Below, in pieces: positions 61,889-64,000 of a stretch of DNA of 64,000 nucleotides. The notes under the pieces were generated by a model. It made no database searches and had not been told where the DNA came from. It saw only the letters and a list, made by a program, of their open reading frames with translations. The position numbers were made by a program, and so were the translations under genes. Each line of letters opens with the position of its first letter. Position 1 is the first letter of the stretch. Origin of the DNA: Pelovirga terrestris (lineage in GTDB: Bacteria; Desulfobacterota; Desulfuromonadia; Desulfuromonadales; Geopsychrobacteraceae); contig NZ_JACWUN010000005.1 in the NCBI RefSeq assembly GCF_014773365.1, positions 124,001 through 188,000 on the forward strand, read 5' to 3'.

Positions 61889-61930
61889 GCTATACTCTCC
61901 TCGCTGGGCAGATTATTATTTGGCCATATT

Positions 61931-62064
61931 TGTTCTGCACCGGATCGGGGTTCCTATGGCAAGGGACGCGATTGTTTCCCGTTGGGTCATCCCTGACCGC
62001 TTGTTGTCGCCGTCCATGGCGACAAACACCCTTGCCACAGAAACCCCGACCCTGCGCAAGGACA
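61931..62064 (+). repeat. Structured palindromic repeat element, copy 1
   Basis: A 134-base imperfect palindrome. The 35-base left arm (61931-61965) matches the inverse of the 36-base right arm (62029-62064) at 29 positions, and most differences are transitions that can wobble-pair. The interior holds two hairpins: GGTCA-TCCC-TGACC (61985-61998) and TTGTCGCC-GTCCAT-GGCGACAA (62004-62025). It lies in the 326-base divergent space between the DUF523 and NAD(P)-binding genes. Its inverted partner is at 63880 onward. Confidence 0.85.
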
Positions 62065-62214
62065 GTGGTGAATAGTTTACATTTGCCCCATACTAGCAGA
62101 AAACAGTGCTCAAACAATCCTGGATATCTTCATCAGGAAAGATCAGAGTGCCATTAACCAGGTTTTTTTGATGCGGCAACCAGTCTCATCACCCACTGGC
62201 CGCAGGAGATACCC

Positions 62215-63744
62215 ATGAATAGTCATCCTGAAAACAATCTGATCCTGGTCACCGGCGGCAGCGGTTACATTGGCGGTCGTCTGATTCCGCGCCTGCTTGA
62301 TGCCGGCTACCGGGTCAGAGCCCTGGCGCGCACCCCGAAAAAACTCGCTGGACGGCCCTGGGGAAACCATGCGAATCTGGAAATTATCAAAGGGGACGTA
62401 CTTGATCCTGACAGCCTGACCGCAGCAGCGGCTCACTGCCGGGCGGCCTACTACCTGGTTCACTCCATGCTCCCAGGGGTCCACGATTTTGCCAACACCG
62501 ACAGGATTGCGGCAGAGAACATGGCCCATGCGGCAAGCCATGCCGGATTGGAGCAGATCATCTACTTAAGCGGACTGGGTGAAGACCATGCCAACCTGAG
62601 CCACCATCTGCAGTCACGTACCGAAGTCGGCGATTACCTGCGTCAGGGGAAGGTGCCGGTCACCATTCTGCGGGCAGCGATGATCATCGGTTCCGGCAGT
62701 GCCTCGTTTGAGATCCTCCGTTATCTGGTCGATCGCCTGCCGGTCATGGTCACGCCACGCTGGGTCAGCACCCCCTGTCAGCCGATCGGCGTGCGCAACG
62801 TCCTCTACTATCTGATTGGCTGCCTTGAACAACCACAGACCCTTGGTCGAACCTTCGACATCGGTCAGCCGCAGGTAACGAATTATCGCGAATTGATGGA
62901 AACCTATGCCGAAGAAGCGGGTCTACGTAAACGATTAATCATCCCGATCCCCCTGTTGACCCCCCGCTTGAGCTCCTACTGGATTCACCTGGTCACTCCG
63001 GTTCCCGCCACCATCGCCCGCCCCCTGGCAGAAGGGCTCAGCAATCCGGTGGTGTGCACCGAAAACAGCATCACCGAGCTGCTACCCCAGGAACTCTTTG
63101 ATGCGCGCAAGGCGATCCGGCTGGCTCTCGACCGCATTCGCCAGCAACAGGTGGAAACCACCTGGAGCGACTCCGGCAACCTGCACCCGGCTGAGTGGAG
63201 CAGCGCCGGTGATCCAAGCTGGTCGGGGGGGAGCGCCTTTGAAGATTCCCGCGAACTGGTGCTTGACGCATCAGCCGAAGAAATCTGGCCGGCCGTCACC
63301 TCGATTGGCGGCGACGTCGGCTACTACTATGCGAACTGGCTGTGGCAACTGCGCGGACTGATCGACCGCCTTGGCGGCGGCGTCGGTTTACAGCGGGGTC
63401 GGCGCAGCGCCGCCGCTCTTTACCCGGGTGATGTCATCGATTTCTGGCGGGTTCTGGCGATCAAGCCGCAACAGCAGTTGCTGCTGATTGCTGAAATGAA
63501 ACTGCCGGGCAAAGGCACTCTGTCCTTCCGATTAATAGAGCAGGACCAGGGCACGACCACCCTGCAGCAAACGGCCCGCTTTTTGCCCCGCGGACTGTTG
63601 GGTCTGCTCTACTGGTATCTGATCACCCCTTTTCATTTTTTTGTCTTCAACGGCATGATTCGCGGCATTGCCGCTGCGACCCAAAAACCGATCAAGTCCG
63701 GACCACGCAAGATAAAGGTTCCCGGCAGCGCTGAGAGGACCTGA
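62215..63744 (+). CDS. NAD(P)-binding epimerase-like protein with DUF2867 domain
   Basis: A 509-residue protein. The N-terminal 300 residues are an atypical short-chain dehydrogenase with the glycine motif VTGGSGYIGGRLIPRLL (residues 11-27) and a YLVHSMLPG segment. Residues about 340-490 match DUF2867, a SRPBCC-like ligand-binding domain (WPAVTSIGGDVGYYYANWLW, DVIDFWRVLA). This two-domain form is widespread; the substrate is unknown. GGAG lies six bases before the ATG. It is flanked by two inverted copies of a structured repeat. Confidence 0.82.
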   Translation: MNSHPENNLILVTGGSGYIGGRLIPRLLDAGYRVRALARTPKKLAGRPWGNHANLEIIKGDVLDPDSLTAAAAHCRAAYYLVHSMLPGVHDFANTDRIAAENMAHAASHAGLEQIIYLSGLGEDHANLSHHLQSRTEVGDYLRQGKVPVTILRAAMIIGSGSASFEILRYLVDRLPVMVTPRWVSTPCQPIGVRNVLYYLIGCLEQPQTLGRTFDIGQPQVTNYRELMETYAEEAGLRKRLIIPIPLLTPRLSSYWIHLVTPVPATIARPLAEGLSNPVVCTENSITELLPQELFDARKAIRLALDRIRQQQVETTWSDSGNLHPAEWSSAGDPSWSGGSAFEDSRELVLDASAEEIWPAVTSIGGDVGYYYANWLWQLRGLIDRLGGGVGLQRGRRSAAALYPGDVIDFWRVLAIKPQQQLLLIAEMKLPGKGTLSFRLIEQDQGTTTLQQTARFLPRGLLGLLYWYLITPFHFFVFNGMIRGIAAATQKPIKSGPRKIKVPGSAERT

Positions 63745-63879
63745 CGCCTGTCCCATCAACAACTGATAACTTGCTACTTTTACTGACAAAAACATGTTAG
63801 GGCAGCAAACAAAGAGTACCCCATCGAAAAAAATCGTGTTAGAGTGCGGATCCTGATAAAATCGTAACCATGCAGCTGC

Positions 63880-64000
63880 TGTCCTTCGCGCAGGGTCGGG
63901 GATTCTGTGGCGAGGGTGACTGTCGTCATGGACGGCGACACCAAGAGGTCAGGGATGACCCAACGGGAAACAATCGCGTCCCTTTCCATAGAATTCAAAG
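63880..64000 (-). repeat. Structured palindromic repeat element, copy 2 (partial)
   Basis: The inverse of copy 1, cut by the window edge. A 38-base core including GGGACGCGATTGTTTCCCGT (reverse complement at 63962-63981) and the GGTCA/TGACC hairpin (63947-63960) is identical to copy 1. The second hairpin TGTCGTC-ATGGAC-GGCGACA (63921-63940) keeps pairing with one G-T. Differences elsewhere would change amino acids in any frame, so it is not a coding repeat. Confidence 0.8.

Follow-up and report, generated by a model that had tools for sequence, protein, structure and literature searches.

The window, a 64,000-nt stretch of the Pelovirga terrestris genome (contig NZ_JACWUN010000005.1, positions 124,001 to 188,000), closes with two inverted palindromes that bracket a single gene, and this arrangement raises the question of what the palindromes are and whether they and the gene belong together. 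The original prediction offered a small non-autonomous mobile element or a structured RNA family as alternatives. Both descriptions appear to hold together for the same repeat.

The two palindromes were correctly recognized in the original prediction, but the limits given there (61931-62064 and 63880 to the edge) fell inside the true ones (61926-62080 and 63864-64020) and terminal repeats had been overlooked. In an alignment of 53 copies from the same genome and two related MAGs, conservation extended as far as GTATCTGTTCAGCAC on one side, and on the other as far as the reverse complement of GTAACTATTCAGCAC. The ends of copy 1 were read from the alignment of more than 50 copies, with the last base placed by the terminal inverted repeat and the target-site duplication. 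The full element so defined occupies 61926-62080 with its RNA sense on the minus strand, where model R1 matched 61926-62079 (146 bits, E = 3.9e-48). Its left terminal inverted repeat (61926-61940, plus strand) reads ATATTTGTTCTGCAC, for which the family form is GTATCTGTTCAGCAC; the right one (62065-62080, minus strand) has the family form GTAACTATTCAGCAC with one additional A in copy 1. Copy 2 lies on the plus strand from 63864 to the window edge at 64000 and extends 20 bp further, to 64020 (the full copy is L020:3865-4021), and its R1 match of 87 bits is cut at the 3′ side by the edge. Each copy is 155-157 bp long, and these two were the only R1 matches within the 64-kb window. Their inverse relationship was borne out by arms at 61954-62057 and 63888-63991 (104 nt, 92% complementary), and the reported 38-base identical core, AAGGGACGCGATTGTTTCCCGTTGGGTCATCCCTGACC, is directly readable in both. 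The description as a structured palindrome was also upheld, the strand folding at -81.9 kcal/mol against a shuffle mean of -47.4 (z = -9.2).

The gene between the copies (62215-63744, plus strand; L020:2216-3745) is, as annotated earlier, an NAD(P)-binding/DUF2867 gene. The proposal that it forms a unit of about 2 kb with the flanking palindromes was not sustained. Copy 1 is flanked by ATTTGGCC (61918-61925) and ATTTGCCC (62081-62088), target-site duplications with 7 of 8 bases the same, and copy 2 by ATAAAATC (63856-63863), whose partner was found past the right window edge, with all 8 bases matching. Since the duplications differ between copy 1 and copy 2, two insertion events took place and the gene did not travel with them as one unit. 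Copy 1 is a polymorphic insertion: it is missing at the corresponding position in G086, G088 and G103, where the adjacent genes align, and in G086 the joined flanks align straight over the copy 1 junction, which is not base-exact because the intergenic sequence has diverged. Inversion of the enclosed gene had also been suggested; no sign of it was seen, and the relatives lacking copy 1 retain the gene and both neighbors in unchanged order. Neither a single duplication outside the pair nor joint presence and absence with the gene was found. Bracketing by two inverted copies is what speaks for a composite unit or invertible cassette, and with a different duplication at each copy and the neighborhood kept where copy 1 is absent, such a unit is exceedingly improbable; the gene is a bystander outside the element.

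The repeat is almost certainly a mobile element. Its terminal pattern GTAWCTRTTCAGCAC, present at both ends of the element, was found with at most one mismatch at 148 sites in the 3.1-Mb genome, and the reversed control gave none. At least six of eight flanking bases were duplicated in 66 of the 88 copies with both ends readable, compared with about 3% when flanks were dealt out at random, and mean flank identity peaked sharply at a length of 8 (0.77, with 0.40 at 7 and 0.39 at 9). The elements are 143-157 bp in size, dispersed, and without an ORF, as is characteristic of MITEs. Terminal repeats, 8-bp duplications and the many copies support the first alternative of the original prediction, and the capacity of these MITEs to transpose is, as judged from sequence, well supported. 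Further copies were found both in this genome and in relatives. Model R1 detected at least 89 each in the P. terrestris genome and its congeners G087 and G088, with 89 candidates scored in each, 86 in G045, 84 in G050, 73 in G042, 66 in G098, 51 in G080 and 44 in G032, the counts in distant genera being upper estimates for the two-hairpin type because weak matches may be same-end elements with other cores; the search covered 36 genomes, and 11 of these gave no copy. Exact ends occurred in 81 of 277 genomes of the class, and outside it the exact pattern of two GGA hairpins was seen in only three sampled genomes of the phylum, where the matches resemble other things. A simple ORF test placed 59 of 63 copies between genes. 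Relative to adjacent genes no strong strand preference was seen (same sense as the downstream gene in a ratio of 32:28, as the upstream gene 23:37), and no strand or 3′-UTR bias among the copies was convincing. Plasmid collections gave no match to the window copy, and plasmid and phage collections gave none to the G043 copy (L121). Copies in G088 (L146, L147 and L148) are closely grouped, with, for example, three in 500 bp at G088:C13:2777-3249, which suggests nested or repeated insertion.

Assignment to the IS66 type is very probable. IS66 elements have GTAA... ends and generate an 8-bp target duplication, and the repeat shows both features. Autonomous, single-gene IS66 elements of about 1.72 kb, encoding transposases of 472-483 amino acids and carrying the same ends, were found in related genomes (L116, L117, L118 and L120). 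In G080, G098 and G124 both termini of the IS66 elements are GTAACTATTCAGCA or a near match, the two readable cases have perfect 8-bp duplications at their flanks (AATAAAAG and CTTGTTTT), and G216 has another IS66 locus with one such end. The IS66 protein tested matched the transposase family PF03050 (E = 9e-43). The shared ends and the shared 8-bp duplication thus place the repeat in an IS66-type MITE family. The IS66 element of the P. terrestris genome (L057) was rejected as the parent on account of its different ends, GTAAGCGTCAACCC; it is the only IS66 in this draft assembly, no cognate element was seen there, and no IS66 was seen in congeners G087 and G088. Draft assemblies can lose IS copies, and a MITE does not strictly need a resident parent; with no cognate IS66 in these three genomes, we infer the transposase source for the present copies. 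A pair of facing ends 3.3 kb apart in G009 was likewise rejected as an autonomous element, the two ends belonging to separate short copies with ordinary genes in between.

Short elements with the same ends and unrelated interiors are present in G009, G041 and G080, including one 37-bp piece with little beyond the two ends. Other MITEs with GTAACTATTCAGCAC ends (L087:1001-1037, L104:1182-1322, L105:1431-1645 and L106:1480-1613) have unrelated palindromic cores without GGA loops. Compared with the single-gene IS66 type (ISBst12-like), the MITE has in common the GTAA ends, the 8-bp duplications and 12-15 terminal bases; it differs in having no ORF and a body that is not derived from the IS and holds a conserved two-hairpin RNA. 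The ERIC/IRU, Correia (NEMIS) and RUP repeats are, like this MITE, intergenic palindromes of about 100-160 bp in tens to hundreds of copies, but they differ from it in ends and duplication length. We know of no CsrA-type loops in these or other palindromic MITEs, and a full-text literature search for CsrA and MITE returned only an unrelated database paper.

Folding of the GGA-loop strand gives a long stem that ends in a pair of hairpins, each with a hexaloop of the form A-N-G-G-A-Y. In copy 1 (minus strand), hairpin 1 (62001-62022) has the GGA within the hexaloop AUGGAC, enclosed by the stem strands UUGUCGCC and GGCGACAA, and hairpin 2 (61984-61999) has it within the loop AGGGAU, enclosed by GGUC and GACC. 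In copy 2 (plus strand), hairpin 1 (63921-63940) encloses AUGGAC by UGUCGUC and GGCGACA, and hairpin 2 (63947-63960) repeats the GGUC-AGGGAU-GACC arrangement. Alignment A1 comprised 36 sequences from several genera in four families of the order, and the proposed pairs were standard in 93.7% of its cells. Double changes were observed in 108 cells, compared with 35.4 by shuffling (0 of 500 shuffles reached 108), the rows being related copies and the changes therefore not fully independent. Sliding the structure by 1-3 bases lowered pairing to 34-51%, a comparison that favors the proposed structure insofar as it was drawn from one of the aligned sequences (L029). Covariation held for the main arms as well as for both inner hairpins, in agreement with the earlier claim that pairing is kept in the internal hairpins, and the stem of hairpin 2 is GUC/GAC, GCC/GGC or CCC/GGG according to lineage, with the same kind of loop. 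Pairing compensated across genera and the kept GGA hairpins likewise support the second alternative, a structured RNA family. The paired change from TTGC/GCAA to TCGC/GCGA reported in the right arm is present in the letters of the two copies, but it does not represent conserved covariation, the GCGA partner being found in 1 of 10 TCGC copies; it is a coincidence of copy 1 and copy 2. Two subfamilies differ next to hairpin 2 (window 61964-61990), with CCCAACGGGAAACAAUC, which includes a further GGGA, in one and GAAAA in the other (L029, L031, L044 and others).

The loops themselves are restricted in sequence. Among 110 copies they read AUGGAC, AUGGAU, AGGGAU, AGGGAC, ACGGAC or AAGGAU with few exceptions, and the spacing of the two GGA motifs was 23-24 nt in 83 of 90 copies. 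On a tree built without the loop columns, 13 changes were inferred over the eight A, G, G and A columns and 48 over the four N and Y columns, the most extreme split among the 495 partitions of the twelve loop columns. A CsrA dimer holds two GGA hexaloops of the form A-N-G-G-A-Y, for which a spacing of 23-24 nt is allowed, and the CsrA SELEX core, CARGGAUG, fits the GGA hexaloops of both this MITE and the CsrB/Rsm RNAs. It is quite likely that selection has maintained the loops for recognition by a sequence-specific RNA binder, for which CsrA is the obvious candidate; the A-N-G-G-A-Y pattern is the signature of a CsrA/RsmA site and would predict CsrA binding. Repeated ANGGAN hexaloops on one strand are a property of CsrB/Rsm-type RNAs, and multiple GGA hexaloops are indeed common to the MITE and CsrB/CsrC/RsmX/Y/Z; the difference lies in two sites per copy and about 90 dispersed mobile copies, as against one to five loci. 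The P. terrestris genome has one csrA, with a flgL-like gene on one side and fliW on the other. Biofilm formation and electron transfer are under CsrA control in Geobacter (PMC11934962). Geobacter relatives have CsrA and FliW with no characterized CsrB-type RNA (PMC13407953), and three software predictions of CsrB-type RNAs are on record for Geobacter (PMC13407953, PMC11934962). In G637, a genome of another class, tandem GGA-hexaloop hairpins (for example GCGCC-AAGGAC-GGCGC, GGCC-AUGGAC-GGCC and GGCGCC-AGGGAU-GGCGCC) occur at two loci (L172 and L176) and were matched at a third; these arrays may be CsrB-like RNAs or leaders under CsrA control.

The nearest Rfam family is TwoAYGGAY (RF01731, clan CL00106). 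The closing stem and two AYGGAY hexaloop hairpins, in the same order, occur in both, with the second loop of the MITE often AGGGAU, so that the Y is not strict. The TwoAYGGAY covariance model aligned over its full length (1-168) and gave 49 matches of 17-38.5 bits in the P. terrestris genome (28.4 bits for copy 1), none reaching the gathering threshold of 43 bits. A match above this cut-off (50.9 bits) was found in the relative G043 at an assembly fold-back; there, the sequence around the element is repeated in inverse orientation at the start of contig C170 (L121:1-300), probably through a fold-back at the hairpin during assembly, and the target-site duplication is unreadable. MITEs with the same terminal repeats and other cores gave no TwoAYGGAY match. 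In excerpts of the literature, TwoAYGGAY is reported from gut metagenomes, gamma-proteobacteria and Clostridiales (PMC2864571) and is proposed to be a CsrA-binding RNA (PMC4333381), and the same excerpts contain no description of it as mobile. Outside the order, a pattern scan of viral contigs gave 103 stretches, with one plausible two-hairpin core (L236, IMGVR_UViG_2924561020_000002). This core, CGCGGC-AUGGAU-GCCGCG followed by CCC-AUGGAU-GGG, closely resembles the G032 and G066 versions, has no clear terminal repeats, and is a possible link to TwoAYGGAY elsewhere. For Geobacter and Pelobacter genomes, 'multicopy nucleotide sequences' have been tabulated (PMC2700814, PMC3543383), and a related repeat may already be among them.

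Several explanations can be set against this evidence. The most serious is that of an ordinary IS66-type MITE in which the palindromic body is kept for reasons of transposition or other DNA-level reasons, with the GGA loops simply carried along from a founder sequence. It accounts fully for the terminal repeats, target-site duplications and copy number, and same-end families lacking GGA loops show that the loops are dispensable for mobility. It does not readily accommodate the swapping of outer arms and hairpin stems between genera with A-N-G-G-A-Y retained, the near-fixed A, G, G and A columns beside fast N and Y columns on one strand only, or the fixed GGA spacing, patterns that DNA cruciforms would not require; we regard it as unlikely, though deserving of attention.

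Stand-alone sRNA genes of the CsrB/RsmY kind that had increased in number through duplication instead of transposition would explain the structure and the GGA loops, which resemble those of CsrA-sequestering RNAs (TwoAYGGAY being a proposed one). Such genes would not be expected to have 8-bp duplications exactly at their ends, IS66 ends, or empty matching sites in relatives, and a convincing promoter was not found in copy 1; this origin is very improbable. Scarcely more probable is an ERIC/REP-like repeat serving mRNA 3′-end protection or termination. The intergenic position, the length of about 150 bp, the long hairpin, the many copies, and terminator-like patterns in copy 1 in excess of shuffles all suit that role, but the RNA-sense strand lies downstream of and co-oriented with genes in only 23 of 60 cases, and a plain terminator or stabilizer has no need of conserved GGA loops.

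The explanation that we consider reasonably probable is that the palindromes are IS66-type MITEs, placed by two independent insertions, with a body selected on one strand as a CsrA-docking RNA. Mobilization would be provided in trans by the IS66 transposase of single-gene elements with the same ends, found in related genomes and not now in this one. The body, a long stem with two A-N-G-G-A-Y hexaloop hairpins 23-24 nt apart, would be selected as RNA, and the hairpin pair would bind one CsrA (RsmA) dimer. Read-through transcription over any of the approximately 90 copies could then yield a CsrA decoy dispersed over the genome, or introduce a CsrA site into a host mRNA, and the element might, speculatively, gain from CsrA-protected transcripts. 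The copies show no uniform cis role, being without strong strand preference relative to adjacent genes, and the lack of strand bias fits action in trans as a decoy, or a selfish role, better than a role in cis. A cell-wide decoy effect is speculative, and we are doubtful, without dismissing it, that a physiological sponge effect exists.

MITEs are usually regarded as inert debris. Conservation of the body at base level suits contact between protein and RNA better than mobility, and this MITE may connect selfish spread with post-transcriptional control on a global scale. It offers a directly testable CsrA-RNA candidate in Geobacter relatives, where CsrB-type RNA is uncharacterized (PMC13407953); if the sponge reading is true, it would be a mobile CsrA sponge in a class without a characterized CsrB-type RNA. 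We suggest that the orphan Rfam family TwoAYGGAY merits re-examination as a mobile element. As a tentative proposal, these MITEs may have spread double CsrA-binding sites, about 100 per genome, across the Desulfuromonadales as a mobile CsrA sponge, and TwoAYGGAY may consist at least in part of IS66-type MITEs and not of a conventional RNA gene. A parasite-like repeat may in this way have scattered the binding sites of a regulator over an order of bacteria.
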